This document shows positions 14,152 through 43,298 of a stretch of DNA of 64,000 nt, piece by piece (the stretch's first letter is position 1; each line of letters begins with the position of its first letter). The notes beneath the pieces were generated by a model that ran no database searches, was not told the origin of the DNA, and saw nothing but the letters and a program-made list of their open reading frames with translations. The DNA lies in contig NZ_JACHWY010000001.1 of assembly GCF_014191715.1 (NCBI RefSeq), positions 992,001 to 1,056,000 on the forward strand, in the 5' to 3' direction. Made by a program: the position numbers and the translations under genes. The DNA comes from Litorivivens lipolytica. Lineage in GTDB: Bacteria > Pseudomonadota > Gammaproteobacteria > Pseudomonadales > Spongiibacteraceae.

Positions 14152-14880
14152 TCAGACCGACGCAGCCAGTGACAGCAGCACTACGACAGGACGCCCCTGA
14201 CGCTCCAGGGTAACCGCCACATAGTCCGCTGCTGCCAACTGCTGGTAAAGCACCGGAATGGCATCGCTGCGCTGCAGCGAGACGCCATTAACACCCAATA
14301 CATTGTCGCCCGGTTGCAGCCCAAGGGCCGCAAAAGCCTGCGGGTCGCTGCCGGGATAAACCGTATAATTCATCCGACCCTGACTGCGTGACGCTTCAAT
14401 TTTCACCTTTCCAGCCAGCGCGAAGGGGTTGATATAGAGCTTCTGGTGATAGGTGCGGGCAAGACGGGTGGCCTGCTCATCGCGCCTCAGGTCAACGAGA
14501 TCCGGCCGAGATGCATCGGTGTCTGCCTTGGCATCACGGACGCAACAGTAAAAGCGGTAGACCTCACCCTGCTGAACCAGTACAGCTTCATCGAGCACGG
14601 CAACAACCGGTGACCCGCCAGCCGACGCTGCTGCCTGTTGAGGAGCCGCGTCACGCGCCATAGCCTCATCGTTTGACAGCTCGGCAAAGAAAGATTGCCC
14701 GCCGTCGGCAAAGGGCTCGTCACCGAAAGCCTCATCGCCAAACAGCGCGGCCTCGTCGCTGAATAACTCGTCCTCCAGCGCCAGAAGATCAGGCTGCGCC
14801 GGCTTCTGCCCAAACACCGCAAGTACGCCTGCGGCAACGATCCAAACAATGGCAAATAAGAGATGTTGTTTAACGGTCAT
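14152..14880 (-). CDS. GspC-like inner-membrane protein with C-terminal PDZ domain
   Basis: A 242-residue bitopic protein: short cytoplasmic start, one membrane helix (about 8-25), an acidic linker rich in Asp/Glu/Ala/Phe (about 35-75), then a homology-region-like part and a PDZ domain (ALGLQPGDNVLGVNGVSLQ, about 192-242). The order and the PGSDPQAFAALGLQPGD segment resemble the type II secretion protein GspC, but no other gsp genes are present. It may be an orphan GspC-like scaffold or a PDZ adaptor for its downstream propeller neighbour. Function is inferred only from architecture. Confidence 0.6.
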   Translation of the reverse strand: MTVKQHLLFAIVWIVAAGVLAVFGQKPAQPDLLALEDELFSDEAALFGDEAFGDEPFADGGQSFFAELSNDEAMARDAAPQQAAASAGGSPVVAVLDEAVLVQQGEVYRFYCCVRDAKADTDASRPDLVDLRRDEQATRLARTYHQKLYINPFALAGKVKIEASRSQGRMNYTVYPGSDPQAFAALGLQPGDNVLGVNGVSLQRSDAIPVLYQQLAAADYVAVTLERQGRPVVVLLSLAASV

Positions 14881-14941
14881 GTCTACTCCTCGAAGGGCTC
14901 AGTCTACTGAGCTTTCCCCTTCTACGAAAGACACCCCCGGA

Positions 14942-14971
14942 TTGGCTCAGTTGCCCTGCCGGCGGTATACT
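14942..14971 (+). promoter_or_regulatory. Probable sigma70 promoter of dusC
   Basis: TTGGCT (14942-14947) and TATACT (14966-14971) are spaced by 18 bases and would start transcription about 20 bases before the dusC ATG at 14999. No Shine-Dalgarno is visible in that leader. Confidence 0.5.
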
Positions 14972-14998
14972 GCGCGCCCATCGAATCCGCGTGCACCA

Positions 14999-15949
14999 AT
15001 GAAGATTTACCTTGCTCCCATGGAGGGTGTAGTCAACGCCCGAATGCGCGCCCTGCTTACCTCTGTTGGCGGGCTGGATCGCTGTGTCACCGAGTTTGTT
15101 CGCGTCACTACCCAACTGTTGCCCCCCCGGGTCTTTCATCGCTACTGCCCGGAACTGGAAAGCGGCAGCCAAACCCCTACCGGTGTTCCCGTTTACCTGC
15201 AATTGCTGGGTAGCGACCCAGCCTGTTTAGCGGATAACGCAGCGCGCGCAGAACAGCTTGGTGCGGCCGGTATCGATCTGAATTTTGGCTGCCCCGCCAA
15301 AACCGTGAACAAACACCGTGGCGGCTCAGTGCTTTTGGATGAACCGGAATTGATACACCGCATTGTTTCCGAAATTCGCCGCACCCTCGCCCCCGCAACC
15401 CCACTCACGGTGAAGATCCGCTTGGGCTACGCCGACGCGTCGCCCCTGCTGGAGGTCGCTAACGCCGTGACTGAGGCGGGCGCATCCGAGCTGATTGTCC
15501 ACGCCCGTACCAAGGCACAGGGATACAAACCGCCAGCGCACTGGGAAGCCATCGGAAACGTACGCGAGCGCGTGAACATCCCGCTGATTGCCAACGGCGA
15601 AATCTGGAATCGCGAAGACTATCAGCGCTGCAAAGAACTCAGTGGTTGCGACGACGTGATGCTCGGGCGCGGCATGCTGGCCCACCCGGCACTGGCACTA
15701 ACGCTGAAGAACGCCCATCAAGCCAACATGCCGTGGCAGCAGGTGCTCACCCACCTGATCGGCTTCCAGCAGGATCTAAAAACAAACTGTACACCCCGCC
15801 ACGCCTGCTCGCCGACCAAGCAATGGCTCGCCTACCTCCAGTGGCATTATCGTGAGGCGGAAGCGCTGCTTAAAGCGGTAAAACGCATTGTTGATGCAGA
15901 GATCATGCTAGCGGAGTTGCAACGCAGGCATCTTCGTGACGCTGCGTGA
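14999..15949 (+). CDS. dusC: tRNA-dihydrouridine(16) synthase DusC
   Basis: A 316-residue flavoenzyme that reduces uridine in the tRNA D-loop. It starts MKIYLAPMEGVVNARMR (FMN site), has the catalytic Cys98 in NFGCPAKTVNKHRGG, an active-site HARTKAQGYKPPAHW segment, IPLIANGEIW and GRGMLAHP. The PMEGV and GYKPPA motifs are those of DusC rather than DusA or DusB. The frame is open further upstream, but ATG 14999 gives the family length and follows a good promoter. The gene is convergent with the signalling operon at 15958. Confidence 0.9.
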   Translation: MKIYLAPMEGVVNARMRALLTSVGGLDRCVTEFVRVTTQLLPPRVFHRYCPELESGSQTPTGVPVYLQLLGSDPACLADNAARAEQLGAAGIDLNFGCPAKTVNKHRGGSVLLDEPELIHRIVSEIRRTLAPATPLTVKIRLGYADASPLLEVANAVTEAGASELIVHARTKAQGYKPPAHWEAIGNVRERVNIPLIANGEIWNREDYQRCKELSGCDDVMLGRGMLAHPALALTLKNAHQANMPWQQVLTHLIGFQQDLKTNCTPRHACSPTKQWLAYLQWHYREAEALLKAVKRIVDAEIMLAELQRRHLRDAA

Positions 15950-15957
15950 AGGTGGGT

Positions 15958-17079
15958 CTATAAAGAAAAGGGCGTTCCGATAAAGTCCTTGCCGACAGCT
16001 CCCGCAACCCCTTCCATCGCCTGAATCACAGCCTCTCTTAGGTCGGGCTGATAATTCAGCGCCTGCGGAAAGGGGGTCACGGTCGAAACCGACAACTCGC
16101 TAAGATGACCCAGACTATCCGCCGTCGTGCCGGCGTCCAGTAATACCGCATGGCAACCCAAGCCTTTGAGGGCCTCCAGAAATTGTTGCAACTGTGGGCG
16201 CACATCGGCTAACTCGCGCTCGGAAACCGCAAACCAGAGTTTATCGGCAAGTTCGGGATGAGCCGTCAGCAGGCGTTGTAGAAAACGCATAAACTGCTGC
16301 GCGCAAACCGAGGCGCGACTCAGGCGGACCAGCGTTTTATTGGCCAAGGTTGAGGATTCAGACAGTTTGGTGAGTACCCAGCGGTCCATCGCCAATAACA
16401 AGTCCATAGAGCCAAGTTCGACTCTCAAATCAGCGATAGGTACGCTCTCTCCCCCCGATTTAAGCAAGATATCGGTTAGCACAAAGTCGCTATCTACGAG
16501 CTCGCTGTAGACAAGTGAAAAACCGTCGTGCAAAAAAGCATGGTGAATGCACTCTACCCAAGGAGTCTGTGCTGGCGCCTGATGCGGCTCGCCATCTTGC
16601 GTCAACTCGGCGCGAACACAACTGCCACCATCGGATTTCGCCTTAAACAGCCCGCGCTCCGCTCGCAGCGTTGCGGCCTCCCAACTTTGATCCGTCTCTT
16701 CAGTCTGGGCTACACCGATGGAAAAGTGCACATCCAAACAAATACCACCAAGGGTCACTTGGCGGCCGCCAAGCTCGTCCAAAAGCTGCTCACTTTCTGC
16801 GTATAGTTCTTTCAATCCGCGGTAGGGGCAAAGCATGGCGAAACTGTCTTCACCCAGATAGAAAAGTCGGTCACCTTCCAGCAGCGAGGCGCTTAGCGTT
16901 TTATGAAGATGGCCGAGGAATTCATCACCCGCATTAAAACCCGCCACCTGATTGATGAGGCGAAAACGGTCGACGTCCAGTACCTTTAGCCCGTGTATAC
17001 GTGTTCCCTGCGTCGTCGCGCGCAGCATGCGATCGAGGCAATTGCGATATGCATCCCGCTCGCTATTCAGCGTCTGCAT
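15958..17079 (-). CDS. Protein with degenerate GGDEF and EAL domains
   Basis: A 373-residue cytoplasmic protein, last gene of the six-gene operon. Residues 1-155 follow the GGDEF fold (LKVLDVDRFRLINQVAGFNAGD, later SIGVA), but the signature motif reads LGEDS in place of GGDEF. Residues 170-373 follow the EAL fold (HDGFSLVYSELV, MDRWVLTKL, VRLSRAS), but EAL reads DIL, the Asn of VNLS is Arg, and the DDFG motif is LDAGTT. No synthesis or hydrolysis of cyclic-di-GMP is expected. It is probably a binding or scaffold output protein. The start is 10 bases after the upstream gene's stop. Confidence 0.75.
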   Translation of the reverse strand: MQTLNSERDAYRNCLDRMLRATTQGTRIHGLKVLDVDRFRLINQVAGFNAGDEFLGHLHKTLSASLLEGDRLFYLGEDSFAMLCPYRGLKELYAESEQLLDELGGRQVTLGGICLDVHFSIGVAQTEETDQSWEAATLRAERGLFKAKSDGGSCVRAELTQDGEPHQAPAQTPWVECIHHAFLHDGFSLVYSELVDSDFVLTDILLKSGGESVPIADLRVELGSMDLLLAMDRWVLTKLSESSTLANKTLVRLSRASVCAQQFMRFLQRLLTAHPELADKLWFAVSERELADVRPQLQQFLEALKGLGCHAVLLDAGTTADSLGHLSELSVSTVTPFPQALNYQPDLREAVIQAMEGVAGAVGKDFIGTPFSL

Positions 17080-17089
17080 CGCAACATTC

Positions 17090-18265
17090 TCACGAAATCA
17101 GGGGAAGGGTGAATTCAACGCGGGTTCCCTCTCCGGGATCACCCTTTAAATCAATTGTGCCGCCATGCCAGCGCACGATTTTGCGACAGATATTCAGACC
17201 GACACCACTACTCGCCGGTACATCGCGGGAATTTTCGCGCCGAAACAGGGAGAACGCATTCTGACGATCGGCATCCGAGATACCTATGCCATTGTCGGAT
17301 ACCGCAAATCGCCAAACATCCATGTCCTTCTTAGCCTCAATACCGATCCTGGGTGGCTGCTCGCTACGAAACCGCAAAGCGTTGGAGATCAGGTTGTAAA
17401 ACACCTGATACAACTGTCGGCGAGAACCCATCACCACCGGCAGATCATCGCAATCAAACTCTGCCTGCATCTCCTCAATCGATTCACGTAAATCCAGGCG
17501 CACATCGTCGACCAGCGTCGATAGATCCACCGGCACGCGAAGTTCGTTATAGCGCCCGCTCTCCGAATAGCGCGCCAAATCATCCACCTTGCGGAACAGC
17601 TCTCGACTCAGCTCGAGCACATCCTGCAACTGCCGGTGCTGGGTGGGAGATATATCTTTCTCAAGTTCGTAGTAGATAACCTGAGTATCGGCGACCAGTG
17701 TCTTCAGTGCCTGCCGAAAGCTGCGCGAAGTAACTTCCGAGAGGGTTTCCAACTCCTCAACCACACCCACCAACTGCTGTCGACTTCGGGCCAGTGCCAT
17801 CATGTCGCGATAGGAGGACAAGGCGGTATAAACCACGGTATAAAGCCTATCCTGTGTCAGCTCGGTTTTGGCGCGGTAGTCATTGATATCGTAAACCGTC
17901 AACACATGACGCTCCGGCGCCAGACCCGGCTGACCGGTTCGCAGAATAATGCGGATAAAACTGTTGCCTATATCTTGACGCACAAACTGGGCGAAGCGTA
18001 AACCCGCATCGTCCGTTTCCATCACAACATCGAGCAGGATCAATGCCACACCGGGGTTGGCTAACAGCTTCTCGCGCGCTTCGATGGCAGAATAGGCGTT
18101 AATAAACTCGAGTCGCCGATTGGCATAGACAAATTCTGACAATGCTAGTTCGGTAATACGATGAACCTCTTCATCGTCATCCACGACCAATATCTGCCAC
18201 GGTGTTTCCTCGAATACATCCGCAGGTGAATCATTCTCTGGGCGTAACTTTAGTACATCATTCAT
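17090..18265 (-). CDS. Response regulator fused to a histidine-kinase-like module lacking the H-box histidine
   Basis: A 391-residue protein. Residues 20-150 are a receiver domain with Asp29-31, phospho-acceptor Asp79, Thr110 and Lys133. Residues 168-235 follow a phytochrome-type dimerisation helix pair, but the expected S-H-D-L-R reads SRSFR, so Arg181 replaces the phospho-acceptor His. Residues 275-388 are an intact HATPase (N-box Asn295, DNGIGIS, SGVGLNICRKIV). ATP binding may persist while self-phosphorylation should not. The receiver is a close relative of the one in the next gene (both have ILRTGQPG and YDINDY). It lies 19 bases downstream of the REC-DUF3369 gene. Confidence 0.85.
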   Translation of the reverse strand: MNDVLKLRPENDSPADVFEETPWQILVVDDDEEVHRITELALSEFVYANRRLEFINAYSAIEAREKLLANPGVALILLDVVMETDDAGLRFAQFVRQDIGNSFIRIILRTGQPGLAPERHVLTVYDINDYRAKTELTQDRLYTVVYTALSSYRDMMALARSRQQLVGVVEELETLSEVTSRSFRQALKTLVADTQVIYYELEKDISPTQHRQLQDVLELSRELFRKVDDLARYSESGRYNELRVPVDLSTLVDDVRLDLRESIEEMQAEFDCDDLPVVMGSRRQLYQVFYNLISNALRFRSEQPPRIGIEAKKDMDVWRFAVSDNGIGISDADRQNAFSLFRRENSRDVPASSGVGLNICRKIVRWHGGTIDLKGDPGEGTRVEFTLPLIS

Positions 18266-18284
18266 CGTTACATCTCACTTCCCA

Positions 18285-19241
18285 TCAGTCTCTGCTGTTA
18301 ATCAAGCAGAGCTTTTCGTGGGCAATTGCCACATTACGGGCAAACAATTCGACGAGTGATACATCAGGTACGTCAATTGGCTTATCACCCGATATATAGA
18401 GCACATTCTGGGTATTTTTCTGTGTCGTGTAGAGCGCCACAACGTAGTCCTGGCCGTAGCGATTGCTCTGCGTTGCAAGCGTATCATCAATGCGCTGCCT
18501 GACATCCGGATGCTTCGACCAAAGCTTTTCTTCACAATCCAGACCTTCAAACTTACCGGTCGATGCAACAACTTGAAAGGTGTCTTCTCCACTCTCCAGA
18601 GCAAGCCCTGAAGTGCGCACCACCAGGAGATCCTGATCCAGGTACATAAGTGCTGACAGCTGCTCCAGAACGCCTTGGGCAAAGTCATCGAGCGAACTCA
18701 AGCGGAACAGGTCAGCCGAGGCCTCGATAACACGAACCAAGCCCCGTCGGTTTTTTTCCAGTGCCACGAGATCCCGATAGCAACTCAGGCTGGTATACAC
18801 ACAGGTAAAGAGTTTCTGGCGGGTCAGCTCAGTTTTTTCCTTGTAATCGTTGATATCGTAATGGGTAATCACATCATATTCCGGCGCCTGACCGGGCTGA
18901 CCGGTGCGTAGAACAATTCGAACGAAACGATTCCCCAAGTTCTCACGAATGTAGCGCACGCAATCCAGTCCGGCGGTGTCACTTTCCATCACGACATCCA
19001 GCAAAATAGCTGCCGTGTTGGTGTGTGTCGCCATGTAGTCTCGGGCCTCCTGACCATTGTAGACCGAATGAATAGCCAGTGGCCGGCCGGCAAATTCAAA
19101 ACCATCGAGCGCTAAGCGGGTTACATCGTGGACTTCACTGTCATCGTCCACGACCAGCAAATGCCAAGGTTCAAGCCCATTATGTCCCGAACCGAGATCA
19201 CTCTCTTCTCCAGCCAGATTCAACGCGTCATTGCCCGCCAT
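18285..19241 (-). CDS. REC-DUF3369 response regulator
   Basis: A 318-residue protein with an N-terminal receiver (Asp32-34, phospho-acceptor Asp82 in ILLDVVMESD, Thr113, Lys in DYKEKTEL) and a C-terminal DUF3369 domain (about 150-318), a GAF-like sensory/output domain found after this receiver type. No DNA-binding domain is present. The start ATG overlaps the stop of the upstream kinase gene by one base (TAATG), which indicates translational coupling and makes this the likely phosphate acceptor of that kinase. Confidence 0.85.
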   Translation of the reverse strand: MAGNDALNLAGEESDLGSGHNGLEPWHLLVVDDDSEVHDVTRLALDGFEFAGRPLAIHSVYNGQEARDYMATHTNTAAILLDVVMESDTAGLDCVRYIRENLGNRFVRIVLRTGQPGQAPEYDVITHYDINDYKEKTELTRQKLFTCVYTSLSCYRDLVALEKNRRGLVRVIEASADLFRLSSLDDFAQGVLEQLSALMYLDQDLLVVRTSGLALESGEDTFQVVASTGKFEGLDCEEKLWSKHPDVRQRIDDTLATQSNRYGQDYVVALYTTQKNTQNVLYISGDKPIDVPDVSLVELFARNVAIAHEKLCLINSRD

Positions 19242-20824
19242 TAGGCCACCTCCTCCATTGAGAGCTTTTGGGGAATCTGCAATGTCACATGTACCCCTTC
19301 TCCAGGTTTGCTATCCATGCGGATTCGCCCGCGCAGCTGCTGCGTCACCAGGTTATACACAATATGCATGCCAAGCCCGCTGCCACCGTCACCGCGCCTT
19401 GTGGTAAAGAAAGGGTCGAACACCTTATCCAAGGCAGCTCGGTCCATACCAACCCCATCGTCTCGATAATGCAGCGCAATCTGTTCACCCTCTTGATCAA
19501 CATCAATCCGGATCGTGCCTTCTTTAGTGTCGGGGTAAGCATGTACTAATGAATTCATCAGCAAATTAGTAATGATTTGAGAAAACGCACCAGGAAAACT
19601 CTGCATCAAAAGATTGTCCGGCACGTTCAACTCTACCGATATATTGGTTTTTTTAAGTTTGGGAAGAAGACTTAGCAAAATCTCTTCAAGGTAATTATGG
19701 AGATCAAACTGACGCAATTCACTGCTGGTCTGATCAACCGCCACCTGCTTGAAACTGTGAATCAGATTGGCAGCACGATTGAGGTTATTCAGCAAAATAC
19801 CTGCTGATTGTATTGCCGTTTGTACGTATTTGCGCAGGCCACTATCGGTTAAGCGCCCGGCCTCATAGCTTGCCGACATATCTTCGGTGGCCGCGTGCAG
19901 GGTGCTGGCGGCTGTGACTCCCACTCCTATAGGCGTGTTAATCTCATGGGCAACACCCGCCACCAAACCACCCAACGAAGCCATCTTTTCCTGATTGACC
20001 AGCTGTTCCTGGGTTTCACGAAGTTGTTTTAGTGTTGTATTCAGCGCGGCGTTCGCCTCTTCAACTTCGGTCACCTGCTGTTTCAATTCGTCATGGGCAA
20101 GACTCAGCGCCAGATCTCTACTTTGAATCTGCGCCAACATGCCATTAAAGCTGTCAAACAAGGTGCCAATTTCATCATTGGCGAACTTCTCTGCGCGCAA
20201 TCCGAAATCACTCTCTTCTGATACCCGTTGCGTGGTCGCAACCAGCTGGGTAATCGGCTGTTCGATTAATCTCCGGAAGAAGCTCGTCAGCAGAAAGGCA
20301 ATCAGCGAACTCACCAACACCATACCAACAGCAACCAGAACACTAAGCCCCATAGCGCCCTGGAGATCGTCGGTGGAGCGTTGTAGAACCACGGTACCCA
20401 GCTGATCCTGACCGACAAAGACTTTTTCACGGTGCAATAGCGATCCTGCCAAGTCCTCAGGCACCGCCGCCAATTCCTTTGGACATTGAAGTCCCTTAGC
20501 AGCGGGCGTATACGACGCAAATAAAACGCCACCGGCATTCTTATCATAGACACAGGCGCGCTCTAGCTCAGTTAATGCTTTAAGGGAAAGAAGGAGATCT
20601 CCTGCCGCGCTAACGTCTCCGAAACTCAGTGCAGCAGAAACATTCTGGGCGAACATATTGGCCGTCGTTTCAATCTCATCAACAGCCTTATTTTTCAGCC
20701 CGACCCAACCCACCGTGAGGTAGACCGCTGTACTGAGCAGTACAACAATCAGGCTGGTGCCGATTATCGACAACAGAATCTTGTGTCGAATGGGCAGTGC
20801 GCTGAGTCTGTGCAAGATAGACAT
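19241..20824 (-). CDS. Membrane histidine kinase with YfiN-like CHASE8 sensor
   Basis: A 527-residue kinase. Helix 1 (about 16-38) and helix 2 (about 157-181) enclose a periplasmic domain with NVSAALSFGDVSAAGDLLLSL and ERACVYDKNAGGVLFASY, the pattern of the CHASE8 domain of YfiN/TpbB. A HAMP linker (180-235), coiled coil, HisKA with His293 (VAHEINTPIG) and HATPase (TNLLMNSLVHAY, DDGVGM, FDPFFTTRRGDGGSGLGM) follow; all catalytic motifs are intact. In YfiN the CHASE8 domain is the contact for periplasmic YfiR, and a YfiR-family gene sits immediately upstream, so direct YfiR control of this kinase is a strong inference. Confidence 0.9.
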   Translation of the reverse strand: MSILHRLSALPIRHKILLSIIGTSLIVVLLSTAVYLTVGWVGLKNKAVDEIETTANMFAQNVSAALSFGDVSAAGDLLLSLKALTELERACVYDKNAGGVLFASYTPAAKGLQCPKELAAVPEDLAGSLLHREKVFVGQDQLGTVVLQRSTDDLQGAMGLSVLVAVGMVLVSSLIAFLLTSFFRRLIEQPITQLVATTQRVSEESDFGLRAEKFANDEIGTLFDSFNGMLAQIQSRDLALSLAHDELKQQVTEVEEANAALNTTLKQLRETQEQLVNQEKMASLGGLVAGVAHEINTPIGVGVTAASTLHAATEDMSASYEAGRLTDSGLRKYVQTAIQSAGILLNNLNRAANLIHSFKQVAVDQTSSELRQFDLHNYLEEILLSLLPKLKKTNISVELNVPDNLLMQSFPGAFSQIITNLLMNSLVHAYPDTKEGTIRIDVDQEGEQIALHYRDDGVGMDRAALDKVFDPFFTTRRGDGGSGLGMHIVYNLVTQQLRGRIRMDSKPGEGVHVTLQIPQKLSMEEVA

Positions 20825-20828
20825 GACC

Positions 20829-21386
20829 TTACCTGACTACTCGCTGCGCCAAGGACAGGAGTTTGCTACTGATCACTATCCCCTGCTCACGCGCCCGCGC
20901 TTCATGGATAACAAAACGCACCTTGCCGTCCACGATAATCAATCCGATCACCCCGCCACGCTCGATAAAATCCTCGCCTTCCCCCACGGTTACAAGCGGC
21001 AAGGTAACGGTCTCCCGTAACCATTGTTCTGACCAGTACGGCGCTTCGCCGCTACTGTAGAGCATATGACAGTCGCTCAATTGACCTCGTTCACTGACAA
21101 AGCGAACATCGATCGATTTATCTTGGGTGGATTTTCCGTTGACAACGCGTTCGATCTGCCGGGTATCCGCCAGTGACGCAGCGATACAAAGGTTGAAGCG
21201 ACCGTTTGTATCCGCAGCCGATGCCGGCCACTCAATAAATTTAGTAAAGTTATAGAGAAAAGCAGCCTTTACGCCCAAGGCGATTTCATTGGCCGCTGCC
21301 ATCGGCGAGATCAGTAGCATTAGCGCAAGACTATATGCAAGGCGCCGCCTAACAGGGCTAGACGTATTGTGAATCAACCCACTCAT
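20829..21386 (-). CDS. YfiR-family (DUF4154) periplasmic protein
   Basis: A 185-residue secreted protein. After a signal peptide ending near AAA-NE it has the DUF4154 core: LGVKAAFLYNFTKFIEWP, then FNLCIAASL, and the closing DGKVRFVIHEARAREQGIVISSKLLSLA. YfiR proteins bind and silence the periplasmic domain of the cyclase YfiN and respond to envelope redox state. Cys residues are present near 70 and 105. ATG 21386 begins two bases after the receptor gene stop; TTG 21392 is an alternative that overlaps it. The kinase gene starts four bases after this gene's stop. Confidence 0.85.
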   Translation of the reverse strand: MSGLIHNTSSPVRRRLAYSLALMLLISPMAAANEIALGVKAAFLYNFTKFIEWPASAADTNGRFNLCIAASLADTRQIERVVNGKSTQDKSIDVRFVSERGQLSDCHMLYSSGEAPYWSEQWLRETVTLPLVTVGEGEDFIERGGVIGLIIVDGKVRFVIHEARAREQGIVISSKLLSLAQRVVR

Positions 21387-21388
21387 CG

Positions 21389-23353
21389 TCAAAAATCCAA
21401 ACGCAGGTTGAGTTGCACTGTTCGGGGGATTTCTACCCTTTGGTTATTCGCCCTGAATTCGGCGTGCTGCGGATCGAGCAGGTTTTTGCCCAGCAGACTG
21501 GCGCTAAGCCCTTCGCTAATTTGCCAGTTCAATGTCGCATCCATCTCGGTATATCCGGCCACCGCCAGGTCAGGCAATTCGCTGACATTGCGCAGCCTCA
21601 CATCGAGATTGACGTGTTTGTTCAAGCGCCAGTTGACCCGGACAAAGCCCTGATGACGTGGGTCATTGCGGTTGGCATTGGCAATGCTGGTATCGGTACT
21701 GCCACGCTTACGCTCAAAATCAACATGGTGGTAGCTGTAGCCGAGCTGGGTGATAAAGCTTTCGTTCGGATTCCAGTTCAAGACCAGCTCGGCACCGCTG
21801 CTGTCGCCTTCACCCTCATTGGAAATCAAGGCAGGGAAGGCACTGGAGTCGACGCCGCGAAGTTCGTCATAGCGATTGTAAAACAGCGCGAGATCGACAC
21901 TGCTGATCGCATTGATACGGTTACGATAGCCCGCTTCCCAGGCGATCAGCTCCTCGGCTTCAAAATCCTCACTACCGCGAATGATCACAATGCCCGCAGG
22001 CGCCGGTTGCGGCGCATAAATCACGAAGTCATGGTCGAGTCGGGTTGGAATACGCACCGCGCGTGACAGCGCAGACCAATAGGTCGTTTCATCATCCGGG
22101 GTATAGGCAAGGCGGAGCGAAGGCTGGATCTCAAGCCCGGAATAATCATTGTGCTCGGCTTTGACACCGAAGGTCAGTTTTAAGCGGTCGGGAATCGCGG
22201 TGTAGACGTCCTGCACATAAACATCATAGGTTTCATCCCGCGCACTCTCAGGAAGAAAAGCGAGTGAGTTGAGGTTGGGCGATTCAATCTCATCCTTCGT
22301 CAGATGATAGCCAAGGCCCGCGACAACCTGATGCCTTTCCCCTAAGTGAAAATGATGGCGATACTCTGCCGAAAAAGTATCCCTGTCTTCATGAAAGAGA
22401 CCGTTAATATCGTAGTCACTGGCCTCAGCAATCAATCGAATGTCATAGCGCGGCAAGCCATCGTCTTGCGCCGAAAGCGTTGCCATCAAGAAATCCGTTC
22501 TCTGCTCTTCGTCACGGCCACCACCCAAGCGATCAACACTGTCACGGTAGGTTTCACCCTGGAGTGATAGCTCACTGCCACCTGCCACAGTCAGATCTGA
22601 GCGAAATCCAACGCGTTGGGCATCGTAGCCATCTTCGGCATCGCGCCCACTGCGCGTCCGGTAATCCGATACCGCCTCACCTTTGACATATAAACGAGAT
22701 GCCGCGGACTCCGTGCTAAACCCGCTGCGCAGATAGGCGTAGCGTTCACCGGTGTGACTCGCACCGGCCGCCAGCTGGTTGCCCTGCGTTTCGCCTGCTC
22801 GGCGGGTCACAATATTGATCACCCCGTTAACGGCATTGGCTCCCCAGAGTGCCGCGCCCGGCCCACGTATTACCTCGATCCGCTCGACGTCGCCGAGGGG
22901 GATGTTGTTTTTGTGCCAGTACACACCGGAAAACAGCGGCGTGTAGAGACTGCGCCCATCCAGCAACACTTCCAGCTTGTCGGCCAGGGTAGAGTTGAAA
23001 CCACGCGCGGTGACCGCCCAGGTATGGGCATCAACCTGGGCCACCGTTAAGCCGGGCACCAGTTTGAGTGCATCCGGCAAATTGCTGACACCGGCACGCC
23101 GAATGTCATCGCCGGTCAGCACATAGGTCGCGGCGGCCGCTCGACGCCAGGGTTGCGGGGTTTTGGTGACGGAGAAAACGTCAATTTCCATCAAGCGCTC
23201 AAGCGACAGCTCAGCCAGATCATCCATGCCAGAGGCGTCTGCCAGCAACATGTCCTGAGCGTAAACTCGCGGTGAAAACAGCGCGGAACTAACCACAATG
23301 CAGGTTAAGGTTTTTGAGAGGGGGCCAGACTTGCGCACGCCGAGATTTGACAC
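21389..23353 (-). CDS. TonB-dependent outer-membrane receptor
   Basis: A 654-residue receptor. The start is GTG 23353, with GGAG exactly seven bases upstream; the longer frame to ATG 23419 lacks a ribosome site and would bury the signal peptide. The signal peptide ends near VYAQ-D. The plug domain has LTGDDIRRAGVSNLPDAL, TARGFNSTLADKLEVLLDGR, ERIEVIRGPGAALWGANAVNGVINI, and the chain ends in a beta-barrel with a terminal Phe (LNLRLDF). It belongs to the receptor subgroup with IDVFSVTK near the mature start. It is first in the operon with a YfiR protein and kinase, so it may deliver or sense the signal ligand. Confidence 0.9.
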   Translation of the reverse strand: MSNLGVRKSGPLSKTLTCIVVSSALFSPRVYAQDMLLADASGMDDLAELSLERLMEIDVFSVTKTPQPWRRAAAATYVLTGDDIRRAGVSNLPDALKLVPGLTVAQVDAHTWAVTARGFNSTLADKLEVLLDGRSLYTPLFSGVYWHKNNIPLGDVERIEVIRGPGAALWGANAVNGVINIVTRRAGETQGNQLAAGASHTGERYAYLRSGFSTESAASRLYVKGEAVSDYRTRSGRDAEDGYDAQRVGFRSDLTVAGGSELSLQGETYRDSVDRLGGGRDEEQRTDFLMATLSAQDDGLPRYDIRLIAEASDYDINGLFHEDRDTFSAEYRHHFHLGERHQVVAGLGYHLTKDEIESPNLNSLAFLPESARDETYDVYVQDVYTAIPDRLKLTFGVKAEHNDYSGLEIQPSLRLAYTPDDETTYWSALSRAVRIPTRLDHDFVIYAPQPAPAGIVIIRGSEDFEAEELIAWEAGYRNRINAISSVDLALFYNRYDELRGVDSSAFPALISNEGEGDSSGAELVLNWNPNESFITQLGYSYHHVDFERKRGSTDTSIANANRNDPRHQGFVRVNWRLNKHVNLDVRLRNVSELPDLAVAGYTEMDATLNWQISEGLSASLLGKNLLDPQHAEFRANNQRVEIPRTVQLNLRLDF

Positions 23354-23719
23354 AGCTGCACTCCTTTCTTGGAGTTGATAAGGAGATAGCGCGTCGCCGA
23401 GATGCACTATTCGGTCCATTATCCGAGACTACGGGAGCTTGTCTATGCTGTGCATACGTGTTTATACGGAGGTTTCACGCGCACTACTTCACGCAAACGC
23501 TACATTGAGCAAAAGAAAAAAGGGGTCTTTCGACCCCAGGGGGAACTGGATAGGAGAGTTCAAAAACGTCTTGTTTTCATATACGCCCTGTTCGCGGAAT
23601 CGGATCAACACCCGTGACTCGACGTTGGGCAGAAGGGGATGACTGTGATAAATTCCCTCTACTTTCCTTAACTTATGTCACCCTGCGGGCTTTTTGGTAA
23701 TTTTCACGATGAGGCAAAT
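23354..23719. promoter_or_regulatory. Divergent regulatory region between receptor operon and pxpABC
   Basis: About 366 bp without a protein gene. For the leftward operon it holds a TATAAA (23461-23466) just upstream of an exact inverted repeat TATGC-TGT-GCATA (23444-23456), which could be an operator, and a Rho-independent terminator (23516-23537) farther upstream. A TATATG at 23578-23583 could start a short leader RNA ending at that terminator. No known riboswitch consensus was recognised. Confidence 0.45.
23516..23537 (-). terminator. Leftward terminator in the receptor-operon leader
   Basis: On the minus strand a GGGGTC-GAAA-GACCCC hairpin with a GAAA tetraloop is followed by six T. No protein gene precedes it on that strand, so it ends either a small RNA or the leader of the receptor operon whose start codon is 163 bases farther on. 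Confidence 0.7.
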
Positions 23720-24484
23720 GTGAGCTCAGCAATCGATTTGAACTGTGATCTCGGCGAAGGCATGGGGTCAGACGCTGAATTGCTGCAGATCGTATCGAGT
23801 GCCAATATTGCCTGCGGCGGCCATGCAGGCAATGCTCAAACCATGAAAGAGGCGGTGACGGCCGCTAAGCGCTGGGGGGTCAACATTGGCGCTCACCCCG
23901 GCTATGAAGATAAGGAACATTTTGGGCGGCGCCCGCAATCGCTCAGCGATGCGGAGATCCAACAGCTACTGCACAGCCAGATAGATACCCTGCGCGAAAT
24001 CGCCAAAGCACAAGGCAGCGCACTGACTCACGTTCGCGCTCACGGTGCGCTCGGCAACCTCACCGATGCCGAGCCCCACGCAGCCGGTCTGCTGTCCGCA
24101 GTCGCCAAGCAGCAGGGCCTGGCGCTGATGGTGCTGGGGCAATCTGCCGCAGAGCAGGCCGCTCGGGAAACAGGAGTCCCAGTAATCCGCCAGTTTTTTG
24201 CGGACCGGGCGTATGATCGCCATGGGCAACTGGTATCGCGCTCGCTGACAGACAGCGTGCTGCATGAACCTCAGCGGATTATTCCAAGGCTGCTCAGCGC
24301 CTTGGACAGCGGCAAAGTCACCAGCATTGAAGGAGACTTGATCCCGGTCGGTTTTGATACCATCTGTGTACATGGCGATACCGACAGCGCACTGGCCCTT
24401 GCCGCAGAAATTCGCCATGCACTGGAGCAACACGGTGTCACGATTCGTCCCTACCCGCCTATGTCGAGGAGTACACGCCTTTGA
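23720..24484 (+). CDS. pxpA: 5-oxoprolinase subunit PxpA (LamB/YcsF family)
   Basis: A 254-residue subunit of the ATP-dependent 5-oxoproline (pyroglutamate) hydrolase. The start IDLNCDLGEGMGSDAELL, then SSANIACGGHAGN, GAHPGYEDKEHFGRR, VRAHGALGN and FADRAYDRHGQLVSRS match PxpA, though the usual KPHGALYN reads RAHGALGN. GTG 23720 is chosen because GAGG lies five bases upstream and it gives family length; the frame extends to ATG 23675. It overlaps pxpB and heads an operon with all three subunits. Confidence 0.9.
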   Translation: MSSAIDLNCDLGEGMGSDAELLQIVSSANIACGGHAGNAQTMKEAVTAAKRWGVNIGAHPGYEDKEHFGRRPQSLSDAEIQQLLHSQIDTLREIAKAQGSALTHVRAHGALGNLTDAEPHAAGLLSAVAKQQGLALMVLGQSAAEQAARETGVPVIRQFFADRAYDRHGQLVSRSLTDSVLHEPQRIIPRLLSALDSGKVTSIEGDLIPVGFDTICVHGDTDSALALAAEIRHALEQHGVTIRPYPPMSRSTRL

Positions 24485-25227
24485 GTGAGGCCTCTCTGCT
24501 TTACACTACGCCCTGCTACTCGCCGGTTGGCGATGGCGCCATGCTGATCGAGCTTGGCCAGGGTATCGACGCGACGCTCAACGAGCGCGTCCTGCAACTT
24601 GAAACCTATATTCGCAACCTGAAAGTTGCGGGGGTCATTGAAACCACCCCCGCCTACGCCTCCCTGTTACTGCACTACGACCCGGATCAGGTCAGCTTTG
24701 ACGATTTGCAGGCAACGGTAAGCTCAATCCATCTGGACGAGCTGCCCACCGATCGCAAGCGTTATGGCTGGCAGATTCCGGTCTGCTACGGTGGGGAATA
24801 CGGCGAAGACCTCGATGCCGTCGCCGAATATCACCACCTTACCAGCGCAGAGGTTATCCGCCTGCACAGCAAGGGGCGCTACCGGGTCTATATGATGGGC
24901 TTTGCACCGGGCTTCACCTACCTTGGCGGTCTGGCGGAACAGCTGCACACGCCAAGGCGCGATAATCCCAGACTGCACACGCCCGCTGGCAGCGTCTCCA
25001 TTGGCGGCATGCAGGCCCTGATTGCCGGTGTAGCCATGCCCAGCGGCTGGCAACTGCTCGGCCAGACACCACTGGCAACCTACGACCCACAGCGTGACCC
25101 GCCGTTTTTGATTGCGCCCGGCGACGAGGTTCACTTTCACCCCGTTAACGCCACAGAGTTTAAACGCCTGCAAAAAGCCGCCGCTAAAGGCAAGTGGGTA
25201 GCCGAGAAGGTGTCGCTCAATGACTAG
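24481..25227 (+). CDS. pxpB: 5-oxoprolinase subunit PxpB (KipI family)
   Basis: A 248-residue protein with the KipI/allophanate-hydrolase subunit 1 fold: GDGAMLIELGQGID at the start, ETTPAYASLLLHYDP, YGWQIPVCYGGEYGEDLD, and YMMGFAPGFTYLGGL with the conserved Gly-Phe-x-Pro-Gly. It starts with TTG at 24481 inside the pxpA stop (TTGA overlap), with GAGGAG nine bases upstream. With PxpC it binds 5-oxoproline and ATP. Confidence 0.9.
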   Translation: MSEASLLYTTPCYSPVGDGAMLIELGQGIDATLNERVLQLETYIRNLKVAGVIETTPAYASLLLHYDPDQVSFDDLQATVSSIHLDELPTDRKRYGWQIPVCYGGEYGEDLDAVAEYHHLTSAEVIRLHSKGRYRVYMMGFAPGFTYLGGLAEQLHTPRRDNPRLHTPAGSVSIGGMQALIAGVAMPSGWQLLGQTPLATYDPQRDPPFLIAPGDEVHFHPVNATEFKRLQKAAAKGKWVAEKVSLND

Positions 25228-26176
25228 AGGCTTACTGGTATTACAGGCAGGCGCGGGCACGACAATACAAGACCTTGGGCGCACCGGTTATCGCCGCTAT
25301 GGCGTCACCGGCAGCGGCGCAATGGATCCGCTCGCTCTGCAGGTTGCCAACTGTCTTGTTGGCAACCCCTTCGATACGCCCTGTATTGAATTAAATATTG
25401 GCAGCGCCGATTTCCGGGTCACCACAGACTCCCTGCGCTGCGCCTTTCACGGTGGCGACTTTAATCTGAGCCTGAATGGCCTGCCCGCCCCCGTTTCCAC
25501 CAGCCTGCGACTGCGACAGGGCGATATCATCAGTATCAGCAGCGCGCGACAGCGAATTCGCGGATATCTGGCGGTCGAAGGCGGTTTTGAGCTTGAACCG
25601 GTACTGGGCAGTTGTGCCACCCATGTGCGTTCAAAACTGGGCGGCTTGGATGGCGGGCCACTGGAAGCCGGACAAGAACTGGTATGCCTTGAAACTGAAG
25701 CCCCGGCTCGCAAGGAAGTTTCGCTTCCCTACGAGCTGCACCCGAAAACCCGACGTCAATTTCGAGTCATTCTCGGTCCTCAGGCCGACCGGTTTACTGC
25801 GGAAGGGATCTACACCTTCCTCAACACCACCGCGTTTCGGGTCGACAAGGATTCCGACAGCCTCGGCTATCGCCTGACCGGCGCGCGAATCGAATACATA
25901 GGCGACGGCAACATCGTCTCCGACCCGGTTGTCCCCGGCTGCGTGCAAGTACCGGCTAGCGGCCATCCCCTGGTCTTGATGGCAGACTGCCCGACTACCG
26001 GCGGCTATCCAAAAATTGCGACCGTGATCTCGACCGACCTGCCAGACCTGGCACAATTGCCTCCCGGCGCCGAAGTCAGTTTTCGCGCCGTGAGCCTAGA
26101 AGAGGCTCAGGCCGCCAGGCAAAAACGACGCCACTGGCTGGCTGAGTTGCCTAACAAATTGATTACGCTGCCTTGA
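25220..26176 (+). CDS. pxpC: 5-oxoprolinase subunit PxpC (KipA family)
   Basis: A 318-residue partner of PxpB (biotin-dependent carboxyltransferase-like, urea-amidolyase-related domain): GAGTTIQDLGRTGYRRYGVTGSGAMDPLA at the start, GGFELEPVLGS, GPQADRF, SDSLGYRLTG, and the terminal VLMADCPTTGGYPKIATV segment. All key segments are present and unbroken. It starts eight bases inside pxpB, so the three subunits are translationally coupled. Confidence 0.9.
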   Translation: MTRGLLVLQAGAGTTIQDLGRTGYRRYGVTGSGAMDPLALQVANCLVGNPFDTPCIELNIGSADFRVTTDSLRCAFHGGDFNLSLNGLPAPVSTSLRLRQGDIISISSARQRIRGYLAVEGGFELEPVLGSCATHVRSKLGGLDGGPLEAGQELVCLETEAPARKEVSLPYELHPKTRRQFRVILGPQADRFTAEGIYTFLNTTAFRVDKDSDSLGYRLTGARIEYIGDGNIVSDPVVPGCVQVPASGHPLVLMADCPTTGGYPKIATVISTDLPDLAQLPPGAEVSFRAVSLEEAQAARQKRRHWLAELPNKLITLP

Positions 26177-29669: not shown

Positions 29670-32174
29670 ATGAGTGTGTTACTGCTGTTAGTCGGTGCAC
29701 TGGCACTGCTGTATCTGGGGACAGGCGGCAGCACCGCCGTTGTCGTTCTGAGTCTGGCGACCCTGCTGGGCATGCATATGGACAACTGGCACTTCGCCAG
29801 CATTCTGTTCGGTGCACTCGCGCTTGGCGCCGCCCTCTTTCTGGTTATCCCCTCCAACCTGCGAAAGCACGAGCTGAGTCGCCCCCTGCTTGCCTGGGTT
29901 CGCGGTATGCTGCCGCAACTGTCTGACACAGAATCCGAGGCGCTCAAGTCGGGCAGCGTCGACTGGGATGGTGAGCTGTTTTCAGGGCGGCCGGACTGGA
30001 GTTACCTGCTCGGCGTCAAACACAGCGAACTGAGCGAAGAGGAACAAGCCTTTCTGGACGGACCGGTGGAAGAGCTGTGCGCCATGCTCGACGACTGGCG
30101 CATCACCCATGAAGATTACGACCTGCCCGAGGACGTATGGAAATTTATGGGAGAGCACGGCTTTTTTGGCCTGGTCATACCCAAAGCCTTCGGCGGTAAA
30201 GGCTTCTGTCAGCGAGCCCACTCCGAGATCGTTATCAAGATTTCCACCCGCAGTGTTTCCGCAGCGGTAACTGTCATGGTACCCAACTCGCTCGGCCCCG
30301 CTGAGCTGTTGTCTGAATACGGCACCGACGAACAGAAGCACTACTACCTGCCACGCCTCGCCTCCGGGCAGGAAATCCCCTGTTTCGCGTTGACCTCGCC
30401 GATGGCAGGTTCCGATGCCGGCGCCATCCCCGACAAGGGCATTGTCTGCAAAGGTCAGTGGGAGGGAGAAGAAGTCCTTGGCCTGAAAGTCACATGGAAC
30501 AAGCGCTATATCACCCTCGCTCCGGTCGCGACGCTGATCGGTCTGGCTATCAAGGTCTACGACCCCGACCACTTGCTGGGTGATGACGATACCATTGGCG
30601 TTACCTGTGTGATGGTGCCCCGAGATACAGAAGGCGTGAACAGTGGTGCCCGGCATCTGCCGATGAATACGCCCTTTATGAACGGCCCGACCTGGGGCAA
30701 CGAGGTCTTTATTCCGCTGTCGCAGATCATCGGCGGCGAAGCGATGTTGGGCAAAGGCTGGACCATGTTGCTGGAATGCCTGTCTATCGGCCGCTCCATT
30801 TCCCTGCCGGGCCTGGCGACCGGTGCCGGCAAACTGGCAACCTTGACGACCGGCGCTTACGCCAGCGTGCGCGAGCAGTTCGGGCGCAGCATCAGTGAAT
30901 TCGAAGGGGTTCAGGAATCACTGGAACAGATCGCCGGCTATACCTATATGATGGATGCGGCGCGACTATTTACCGTCTCCATGCTGGATCGCGGCGTCCG
31001 GCCAGCGGTACCCTCTGCCCTGCTGAAATATCGCAACACCGACCTGATGCGCACGGTGGTCAACCACTCCATGGATGTGGTGGCAGGACGTGGCGTGATT
31101 ACCGGGCCTCGTAACTTTATGGCGCGGATTTATCAGGCAGTACCCATTGCCATTACCGTTGAAGGGGCCAATATTCTGACCCGCAGCTTGATGGTATTCG
31201 GCCAGGGCGCTATCCGCTGCCATCCTTTTATTGTGGATGAGATCGAAGCGGCGAATATGGAAGACGAGGCCGCCGCCATCGACAAGCTCGACGGCGTGTT
31301 CTACCGCCATATCGGCCATACCACAGGCAACGCCCTGCGGGCCATGCTGCTGGGGCTGAGTTTTGGCGCCCTAGCCACCGTTCCCGCACGCGGCAATATC
31401 AAACGCTACTATCGCCAGCTCTCGCGTTTCGCCGCGGGGTTTGCGCTGCTCACGGATATCTCGCTGTTGACTCAGGGTGGCGCCCTCAAGGCGCGCCAGC
31501 GACTGTCGGGCCATATGGCTGACTGTCTGGTTCGACTCTACTACGCTTCCGCCATCATCAAACAATGGCACGAAGAAGGTTATCCGGAGGGTGACCGCCT
31601 GGTGGTTGAATGGGGCCTGCAGACCTGCCTCCACGAGCTGCAGGAACACCTGCGCTGCGTGATTGACGATTTCCCGGTCAAGGCCCTGCGTTGGCCACTG
31701 CGTATTATCCTGTTTCCGCTGGGACCGATCGGGCTGCGTAAACCGTCTGCCGAAATGGGTACCGAGCTGGCCAAGGCGATTACCCGTGATACACGCCTGC
31801 GAGACCGGATTACCGAAGGGGTCTACATCAACGACAAGCCAGACGACCCGGTCGGTCGCGTACTCCACGCCTACCAATTAGCCAACGATACCCAGTCACT
31901 GCGAGACAAGCTGCACAAGGCCATACGCAATCGCGATGTGAATGAGCTGGACGGCATTGCGCTCTTGATGGGTCACGAACGCCGTCAACTGGTGGACTGG
32001 GCTGTGGAAAACGAGGTGATTGACGCTGAGGATCGCGAGCGGCTGCTGGAAGCCCTGACCGCCTTGTACGATGTGATTCGGGTAGATGCTTTTGACCCGG
32101 AGGGCTTGAAGGAAATTGCCAAGGCACAGGCAGGCAAACGGCGGGTGGTTGAACGTCCTGCGGACCAGCAGTAA
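29670..32174 (+). CDS. fadE: Acyl-CoA dehydrogenase FadE
   Basis: An 834-residue membrane-associated acyl-CoA dehydrogenase, first step of beta-oxidation. Two N-terminal hydrophobic helices (about 2-30 and 36-62) precede the dehydrogenase core: LTSPMAGSDAGAIPD, SIGRSISLPGLATG, SEFEGVQESLEQIAGYTY, ITVEGANILTRSLMVFGQGA (catalytic Glu in VEGAN). Length matches the FadE type of E. coli, longer than soluble enzymes, with the C-terminal FadE-specific domain. Ribosome site GGGAG is eight bases upstream. fadD lies 9 kb away, not in the same operon. Confidence 0.95.
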   Translation: MSVLLLLVGALALLYLGTGGSTAVVVLSLATLLGMHMDNWHFASILFGALALGAALFLVIPSNLRKHELSRPLLAWVRGMLPQLSDTESEALKSGSVDWDGELFSGRPDWSYLLGVKHSELSEEEQAFLDGPVEELCAMLDDWRITHEDYDLPEDVWKFMGEHGFFGLVIPKAFGGKGFCQRAHSEIVIKISTRSVSAAVTVMVPNSLGPAELLSEYGTDEQKHYYLPRLASGQEIPCFALTSPMAGSDAGAIPDKGIVCKGQWEGEEVLGLKVTWNKRYITLAPVATLIGLAIKVYDPDHLLGDDDTIGVTCVMVPRDTEGVNSGARHLPMNTPFMNGPTWGNEVFIPLSQIIGGEAMLGKGWTMLLECLSIGRSISLPGLATGAGKLATLTTGAYASVREQFGRSISEFEGVQESLEQIAGYTYMMDAARLFTVSMLDRGVRPAVPSALLKYRNTDLMRTVVNHSMDVVAGRGVITGPRNFMARIYQAVPIAITVEGANILTRSLMVFGQGAIRCHPFIVDEIEAANMEDEAAAIDKLDGVFYRHIGHTTGNALRAMLLGLSFGALATVPARGNIKRYYRQLSRFAAGFALLTDISLLTQGGALKARQRLSGHMADCLVRLYYASAIIKQWHEEGYPEGDRLVVEWGLQTCLHELQEHLRCVIDDFPVKALRWPLRIILFPLGPIGLRKPSAEMGTELAKAITRDTRLRDRITEGVYINDKPDDPVGRVLHAYQLANDTQSLRDKLHKAIRNRDVNELDGIALLMGHERRQLVDWAVENEVIDAEDRERLLEALTALYDVIRVDAFDPEGLKEIAKAQAGKRRVVERPADQQ

Positions 32175-42672: not shown

Positions 42673-43298
42673 GTTCCTTCCTCGGTCGGTATTATTTGTC
42701 GCGGCGTACACCCGCGTTAGCTTGCTGAAACTAACGGTGTTTTATACCCCTGTCAACGCGCGGCACCGGCACCTGAAAAGCAATACCCGATATTCATGCC
42801 GTCTATGGGAGAAGCTGTGAAAGTCCTTGAAAACACGGCGTTTGATGAACGCTGGAGTCGAACAGACTTTATCTCGGCAGCACATGGAGCTATGCGGGGA
42901 AAAGGCGGCGCTGGGCGAGCCCATTTTTTAGCCGTGGCGGAAAATCCACTGAACTGATGCCAGTCGCGAATATAAACGGTGCTCCGTCCGCACTGCACGC
43001 CGGCCAGACGGCCCATTGCAACCCTATCGGGAAAGCCGCAAGTATTTGCCGCCGTTAAAAAAATCATTGTGCTGGCAGCCGATCCACCCAAGATTACGAT
43101 CGTGTAAAACACGCGTAACAATTTTGACCCAAAGCCCGTTTTCTGTAATAGTTGGCGCTGTTTTGCTGGGGCGGGAATATTACCGTTCCAGCTGATCAAA
43201 TAACGAGCACCAAGTAGTTCAAAAAACGCACAGAACAAAAACGACTGAATCGCTTGTAACACTATTTGTAGAAACCGTTTAGAGCTCCCACTTCAGCT
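42673..43298. other. Intergenic region, 626 bp, without a convincing gene
   Basis: Left end holds the fadD promoter; right end must hold the promoter of the coiled-coil protein gene at 43299. A 169-codon minus-strand frame (42753-43262) has two hydrophobic stretches but AT-rich irregular codon use, no ribosome site and no recognisable family, and its end overlaps the fadD promoter, so it is not called as a gene. Confidence 0.5.
42728..42756 (-). promoter_or_regulatory. Sigma70 promoter of fadD with an inverted repeat
   Basis: TTGACA (42751-42756) and TAGTTT (42728-42733) are spaced 17 bases on the minus strand, 56 bases before the fadD GTG. An inverted repeat GTTAG-N10-CTAAC (42716-42735) overlaps the -10 and could be a fatty-acid regulator site, though it does not match the FadR or PsrA consensus well. 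Confidence 0.6.

Follow-up and report, generated by a model that had tools for sequence, protein, structure and literature searches.

A putative trans-envelope signalling operon joining a TonB receptor, a YfiR/CHASE8 kinase and a REC-DUF3369 protein in Litorivivens lipolytica

Background

How might a TonB receptor facing the outside of a cell pass a signal to the enzymes within? The question is raised by six consecutive open reading frames on the minus strand at positions 15958-23353 of the stretch of DNA analysed here (the window; 64,000 nucleotides of Litorivivens lipolytica, contig NZ_JACHWY010000001.1, positions 992,001 to 1,056,000), encoding, in order, a TonB receptor, a DUF4154/YfiR protein, a CHASE8-HAMP histidine kinase, a REC-DUF3369 protein, a REC-HATPase and a degenerate GGDEF-EAL protein (Table 1). 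To our knowledge, it is little understood how TonB receptors report other than via FecR-type anti-sigma factors, and the conserved gene order TonB receptor-YfiR-CHASE8 offers a concrete, testable path from a receptor to an inner-membrane enzyme in many phyla.

An original prediction, made from the sequence alone, described these genes as a YfiR/CHASE8 module rewired to a phosphorelay under a TonB receptor. The observation holds, the mechanism attached to it is plausible, and the rewiring to a kinase is already known. New here are the breadth of the receptor-YfiR-CHASE8 linkage, the REC-DUF3369 protein as likely receiver, the histidine-less REC-HATPase, the dead GGDEF-EAL protein and a possible tie to alkane sensing. 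Gene order, domains, conservation and the loss of catalytic residues are established at the level of sequence. Our overall reading, a trans-envelope signalling operon in which a receptor-gated YfiR/CHASE8 kinase would act on the REC-DUF3369 protein, has about equal chances of being right and wrong.

Table 1. Positions of the operon genes, the CHASE8 domain and putative upstream signals in the window.
Feature	Position	Strand	Basis
TonB-dependent receptor, TOL_0244-like	21389..23353 (open frame to 23419)	-	Pfam, NCBIfam
YfiR-like DUF4154 periplasmic protein, 185 amino acids, two cysteines	20829..21386	-	Pfam DUF4154 2.1e-36
Sensor histidine kinase, TM (transmembrane)-CHASE8-TM-HAMP-DHp-HATPase	19241..20824	-	Pfam
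CHASE8 domain, kinase residues 43-147	20384..20698	-	Pfam PF17152
REC-DUF3369 protein, no HD-GYP output, ends after DUF3369	18285..19241	-	DUF3369 1.8e-40
REC-HATPase, DHp-like helix without phospho-acceptor histidine	17090..18265	-	HATPase_c 5.3e-25; alignment
Degenerate GGDEF-EAL protein (GEDSF for GGDEF)	15958..17079	-	Pfam; alignment with cassette homologues
Promoter-like hexamers upstream of receptor gene	23418..23445	-	Consensus match only
Terminator-like hairpin before receptor gene	23537-23522		Consensus scan only

The receptor, the YfiR-like protein and the CHASE8 kinase

The six genes look like a single operon, with spacings of +2, +4, -1 (a stop/start overlap), +19 and +10 bp, which the original prediction had given almost exactly as gaps of 0-19 bp. 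The receptor consists of a barrel (1.6e-30) and a plug (7.3e-20) in Pfam, and its best NCBIfam match is NF053590 (609.7 bits, under the cut-off of 645). The window genome holds exactly one DUF4154 match, and its place beside the receptor and the CHASE8 kinase is therefore unlikely to be chance.

The sensor part of the kinase had been proposed to be CHASE8-like, and its N-terminus does score as CHASE8, with 58 bits (1.2e-15) in PF17152 against a cut-off of 27. HAMP (33.1, cut-off 25) and HATPase_c also lie over their cut-offs and HisKA lies below (22.1 bits, cut-off 26.9); the alignment places the phospho-acceptor histidine at residue 293, in HEINTPIG. The best NCBIfam match is NF053592, 'sensor histidine kinase, YfiR-like protein-associated' (152.2, under the cut-off of 194). 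An AlphaFold2 model of residues 1-240, based on a 44-row alignment, reached a predicted local distance difference test (pLDDT) value of 94.0; its top structure matches were integrative models of WalK and chemoreceptors, followed, at modest scores, by periplasmic sensors of the LapD and WalK types known from crystal structures. Residues 64-68 (AALSF) line up with AAVVF in E. coli YfiN, a motif proposed for the interface with YfiR.

The second gene matched DUF4154 when its product was searched against that family, as anticipated, and its best NCBIfam match is NF053591 (121.1, under the cut-off of 125). A sequence search of PDB with this protein returned zero matches at E<=10. The best PDB matches of its AlphaFold2 model (47-row alignment, pLDDT 91.4) were the YfiR crystal structures 4yn9/4zhu (E 7.4e-7, TM-score 0.61/0.74, 14% identity). 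Ranked after these were the single-domain substrate-binding protein of Rhodothermus marinus (8wgl, 6k1x, 5z6v, 6k1y) and the two-domain proteins 3lft and 3lkv, with amino-acid-binding proteins among these folds. DUF4154 was also seen as the N-terminal part of hybrid histidine kinases, in all seven of the long proteins scanned (L061:7261-9537, L062:7016-9460, L063:8589-10895, L064:8464-11142, L065:6948-9710, L066:6471-9440, L067:8122-10884), where it is followed, as read from the sequences, by a long stretch resembling a coiled coil and by a hydrophobic helix.

These next-best folds lend something to an explanation by ligand hand-off, in which a compound imported by the receptor is bound by YfiR, itself one lobe of a substrate-binding-protein fold, and CHASE8 reads the loaded YfiR, so that receptor and YfiR would not need to touch. 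The seven hybrid kinases with a DUF4154 part of their own likewise suit a sensor role without a second partner. The R. marinus protein, however, was soaked with ten ions and an amino-acid mixture, and the accessible text of that report describes effects of Br- and of Hg2+ (on cysteine) and calls the function unknown (PMC10805632); further, the YfiR-YfiB complexes, as described in the portion of PMC4655355 consulted, show that YfiR is able to act by protein contact. We consider the hand-off unlikely, though it deserves a place among the candidates.

Spread of the linkage

The co-occurrence of the first three genes in other genomes, which the original prediction called for, was borne out. Named genomes were scanned with an alignment of 12 such receptors, and the best 80 loci were analysed, out of a larger number that exist. 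In 63 of these 80, the start of a YfiR gene lies at most 400 bp from where the receptor match ends (at most 4.5 kb in 66), and in 57 the YfiR gene is followed by a CHASE8-type gene. Receptor and YfiR stand together in Gamma-, Beta- and Deltaproteobacteria, Verrucomicrobia, Acidobacteria, Bacteroidota, Nitrospira, Gemmatimonadetes, Planctomycetaceae and further groups, mostly in metagenome-assembled genomes, with isolates including Spongiibacter thalassae, Geomonas limicola, Lysobacter sp. and Reichenbachiella faecimaris. The YfiR proteins matched NF053591 at E<=1e-3 in 47 of 47 cases. Pfam domains were assigned to 46 partner proteins, namely the window kinase and 45 of the 46 named pairs found by the gene caller (L221, cut by a contig end, was left out), a set that overlaps but differs from the 57 loci above; CHASE8 was found in 45, HAMP in 44, HATPase_c in 41, REC in 22, Hpt in 16, GGDEF in 5 and EAL in 5. 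Taken across phyla, the receptor-YfiR-kinase neighbourhood points to a common, uncharacterised way to sense the outside.

Within the order, 100 neighbourhoods were picked by score and interest, not at random, from part of the listed places. Among their 61 stand-alone YfiR genes, 51 have a CHASE8-type gene after them, 27 a receptor gene before them and 21 both, counts that are rough given that genes were called as longest open frames and some YfiR genes are hidden under antisense frames (e.g. L123). The outputs of the 51 YfiR-CHASE8 pairs are 33 kinases, 12 GGDEF(/EAL) proteins, 3 proteins with kinase plus GGDEF/EAL and 3 others; in the same order, 14, 4, 3 and 0 of them have a receptor gene upstream. 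The YfiR/CHASE8 front end is thus constant while the output varies. Three CHASE8-type proteins behind receptor and YfiR genes (L049, L133 and L158, with 1680, 1658 and 1647 amino acids) carry kinase and GGDEF/EAL-like parts in one chain.

The same counts bear on a second explanation, that the receptor is a regulated target or a fellow traveller, with the cysteine pair of YfiR sensing redox or envelope stress and driving the kinase, and the receptor gene being merely co-expressed. In its favour, the first YfiR cysteine pair is conserved (cysteine in 71% and 89% of aligned rows), redox conditions make or break the Cys71-Cys110 bond in P. aeruginosa YfiR according to the consulted part of PMC4655355, and 34 of the 61 YfiR genes in the order have no receptor gene directly upstream. 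The second, stabilising cysteine pair is absent from the window protein, however, and a YfiR gene next door in 63 of the 80 best receptor relatives, from many phyla, is hard to explain by co-expression alone. We judge this explanation to be improbable.

The cytoplasmic genes

The arrangement of the three remaining genes varies within the family of the window genome, where the receptor (E<=1e-80) was found in 10 of 21 genomes and the REC-HATPase (E<=1e-60) in 19. All six genes stand in order in two of the three genomes of the genus, the window genome and G293 (locus L142), with protein identities of 54, 36, 55, 59, 54 and 34% in gene order; the third genome (G294, 70% complete) has neither a receptor nor a REC-HATPase match. 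In the sister genus, the receptor-YfiR-kinase trio stands alone at seven complete loci, with an eighth cut by a contig end, and a separate cassette occurs at 17 loci, with REC-HATPase and GGDEF-EAL genes in 17 of 17, a kinase gene in 15 and a REC-DUF3369 gene in 14 (one of them short). CHASE8 was not found in the three cassette kinases scanned. A genome from another order of the class (G324) has the receptor, YfiR, CHASE8 kinase, REC-DUF3369 and REC-HATPase genes in one operon at 33-47% identity, and a class-wide draw of 369 genomes held the REC-HATPase (E<=1e-55) in three, the window's own included. The expected conservation of the six-gene order is therefore partial: it is kept in two of three genus genomes, with five of the genes together in G324, and the full order was seen nowhere else examined. 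From their gene content, these split and merged operons name REC-DUF3369 as the likely receiver of the kinase.

Chance adjacency, with independent genes brought together and the kinase serving unrelated receivers, could find room in the eight sister genomes that have the receptor and, in the stretches fetched, no REC-DUF3369 or REC-HATPase gene beside it. It is countered by a gene order that two species of the genus share at 34-59% protein identity and, for five genes, by its conservation at 33-47% in another taxonomic order, and we regard it as highly improbable.

The residues for two-component phosphotransfer are present, in the form of His 293 of the kinase and the Asp and Lys of the receivers. 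Both REC domains score below the Pfam cut-off (25.4 bits against 30.2 for the DUF3369 protein, 21.0 bits for the REC-HATPase) and both keep, as read from their sequences, the acidic pair, phospho-acceptor Asp, Thr and Lys (LLD, T and K in the DUF3369 protein). The kinase group was found beside REC-DUF3369 genes in the families f1, f28, f34 and f71 (our handles), the DUF3369 protein carrying an HD domain in f28 and f34. Members of the group recur beside genes for REC-DUF3369 or REC-HATPase: without the 13 rows whose match is confined to the HATPase part, 40 of 139 kinase places in the order have one of the group's REC genes within 400 bp downstream and 64 of 139 within 6 kb. These numbers are probably lower bounds, as scoring took in just the six best REC candidates of each genome. 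In a tree of catalytic domains, rooted at the midpoint and with long branches, a single clade (100/99) unites the kinases of the window, trio and cassette with the YfiR-linked kinases of f28 and f34 and a PAS kinase (L117). Outside it fall three other YfiR-partner kinases and a neighbouring kinase (the outgroup row L038, 691 amino acids, which is not the YfiR partner of its locus). DHp helix 1 of the group is nearly identical within the family around VAGVAHEINTPxGVGVTAAST.

The phosphorelay of the original prediction gains support from the REC-DUF3369 genes beside which the kinase group repeatedly lies, and needs revision in the role of the REC-HATPase. In alignment, the phospho-acceptor histidine is absent from the REC-HATPase of the window, of G293 and of all 17 homologues in the family, which have Arg in its place, so the protein cannot be an ordinary relay kinase. 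The histidine is retained in G324 (SHDLQEPL) and in a relative in the same genome, which lies beside NiFe-hydrogenase (nickel-iron hydrogenase) genes. The last protein of the operon scores over cut-off for GGDEF (5.6e-15) and EAL (2.3e-12) and has lost its catalytic residues. Both genomes of the genus with the merged operon (window, G293) have it in degenerate form, and the six sister genomes displayed have an intact protein (RLGGDEFG or RTGGDEFA, with the EAL residues kept); judged from these alignments, it is in the genus with the merged operon that the output differs most.

Two further loci concern the same protein groups. At L117:6845-12208 (C1:1202844-1208207 of the window genome), the related REC-HATPase with intact histidine and the PAS histidine kinase stand directly before NiFe-hydrogenase subunit genes. 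At L121:3275-4828, in front of the genes for YfiR and a CHASE8 kinase, REC-DUF3369 and HD occupy two neighbouring frames, and the response regulator is, as its frames read, split or broken.

A possible mechanism and what weighs against it

In the mechanism that we propose, the TonB receptor would meet its ligand outside the cell and, once occupied or energised, alter the amount of YfiR available to occupy the kinase's CHASE8 domain. Binding of YfiR would set kinase activity via HAMP, as for the cyclase activity of YfiN, and phosphate would then pass from the kinase to the REC domain of the DUF3369 protein, perhaps also to that of the REC-HATPase. With its own phospho-acceptor histidine lost, the REC-HATPase would be a phosphate-dependent regulator and not a relay kinase, and the degenerate GGDEF-EAL protein would be a non-catalytic end point, working by cyclic di-GMP binding or protein contact. 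Within this chain, YfiR very probably binds CHASE8, and phosphotransfer from the kinase to REC-DUF3369 is probable.

Several observations weigh against this mechanism. The step from receptor to YfiR, with its putative contact between the two, is no more than somewhat probable. The best 80 receptor relatives include 14 with no YfiR gene within 4.5 kb (3 of these 14 end within 700 bp of the receptor, as do the contigs of 4 of all 80), to which come the 34 YfiR genes of the order that lack a receptor gene directly upstream and the trio of the sister genomes, which has no adjacent receivers. Of 30 CHASE8 loci, 7 have no YfiR match in a stretch of about 1.5 kb on each side, and these 7 keep AAxxF (5 loci) or a looser form of it (2 loci), so the motif is not specific evidence of YfiR binding. 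The distance correlation between YfiR and CHASE8 (0.60) is modestly above that between YfiR and HAMP (0.49), over 97 pairs and confounded by phylogeny. Finally, the tree does not settle the branching order of the window, trio and cassette kinases within their clade, and the PAS kinase L117, which is without CHASE8, falls inside the same clade.

Two candidate arguments were rejected. An AAVVF-type motif was not accepted as proof of YfiR binding, as it occurs also in CHASE8 loci with no YfiR match nearby, and the six-gene set was not accepted as a unique rewiring, as its core is widespread (57 of the 80 best relatives) and kinase outputs are published (PMC3375315).

A candidate ligand

The alkane-linked TonB receptors TOL_0244 and OmpS offer a lead, since TOL_0244 gives its name to the best-scoring family of the window receptor. 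According to the consulted part of PMC6304351, TOL_0244 of Thalassolituus oleivorans was sevenfold up on n-C28 compared with Tween 80 and is 40.3% similar to OmpS of Alcanivorax dieselolei, which is reported there as essential for alkane detection; OmpS is also treated in PMC9788540 and PMC5174103, as far as their accessible text goes. A hydrophobic or alkane ligand for the window receptor is accordingly a tentative suggestion on our part, a lead and not a result. The link to TOL_0244 and OmpS could offer a mechanism for oil sensing by marine bacteria.

Going further, we see it as conceivable, if short of probable, that TonB receptor-YfiR-CHASE8 constitutes a phylum-spanning trans-envelope class parallel to FecA-FecR, with the receptor in the place of YfiB and with any CHASE8-linked output (kinase, hybrid kinase, cyclase or cyclase-phosphodiesterase), that the alkane-linked receptors OmpS and TOL_0244 belong to this class, and that the output in this genus has evolved to a histidine-less REC-HATPase and a dead GGDEF-EAL protein. 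If true, YfiR would be the missing periplasmic link of alkane sensing.

Flanking features

Elsewhere in the window lie genes for a PQQ (pyrroloquinoline quinone)-dependent alcohol dehydrogenase, a FadE-like acyl-CoA dehydrogenase and two acyl-CoA ligases (1882-4074, 29670-32174, 40975-42711, 62018-63601), and these dehydrogenase and ligase genes may suit growth on fatty or hydrocarbon substrates. A membrane desaturase-family protein is encoded at L279:1321-2490, near base 3000 of C1 in the window genome. It is putatively AlkB-like, judged solely by its histidine boxes; it matched no NCBIfam family at E<=1e-20.

The best promoter-like match ends at 23418, and for this reason the receptor start given in the original prediction, GTG at 23353 with an AGGAG-like site before it, seems better than the longer frame that opens with ATG at 23419. 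Matches of this promoter-like kind (3 in the region, against a mean of 5.9 in shuffles) are no commoner than in shuffles. Upstream of the operon and diverging from it are 5-oxoprolinase genes like pxpA, pxpB and pxpC (23675-26176), and the downstream neighbour (14849-15949) resembles a tRNA-dihydrouridine synthase gene.

Comparison with known systems

The nearest precedent is found in the divergent Yfi systems of Malone et al. 2012 (PMC3375315), which share a YfiR-PAS/HAMP core; in the consulted part of that paper, almost all divergent operons are without a yfiB homologue and many have the GGDEF output swapped for GGDEF-EAL, Hpt or sensor kinases. The word 'TonB' is absent from its main text, a check that did not extend to Table S4, which may list single cases. 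The rewiring of YfiR/CHASE8 to a kinase is thus real in the window and not special to it, given sensor-kinase outputs published in 2012 and the existing NCBIfam models. Release 20 of NCBIfam has three consecutive models, NF053590 (TOL_0244 receptor), NF053591 (TOL_0243 YfiR-like) and NF053592 (YfiR-associated kinase), and the receptor-YfiR-kinase trio is therefore already catalogued. They are the best matches of the window's first three proteins, all below cut-off, with the three cytoplasmic genes outside them; NF053592 is named for a YfiR-like neighbour, and the window kinase gene likewise adjoins a YfiR-like gene. Our literature search, which covered few subscription papers and no supplementary tables, found no paper describing a TonB receptor joined to YfiR and CHASE8.

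With YfiBNR of P. aeruginosa, HmsCDE and YfiR-DgcN-YfiB of E. coli, the operon shares a DUF4154 gene beside the gene of an inner-membrane CHASE8-HAMP protein, as well as the YfiR fold. It differs from YfiBNR in that its CHASE8 protein ends in HATPase_c (with a weak HisKA) and not in GGDEF, in the TonB receptor gene upstream and in the absence of the second YfiR cysteine pair. Pfam found no OmpA family, as in the OmpA-like YfiB, among the six operon proteins, the rest of the genome not having been searched for YfiB. The REC-DUF3369-HD response regulators have the same REC-DUF3369 front, and HD follows it in proteins near the YfiR/CHASE8 kinases of f28 and f34, whereas the window protein stops after DUF3369.

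FecA-FecR-FecI, in which the receptor has an N-terminal STN signalling domain and is accompanied by anti-sigma and sigma genes, differs in its parts: the Pfam scan gave plug and barrel with no STN domain for the window receptor, and it matched none of the six operon proteins to a sigma or anti-sigma family. What the two have in common is a TonB receptor that is proposed to signal across the envelope.

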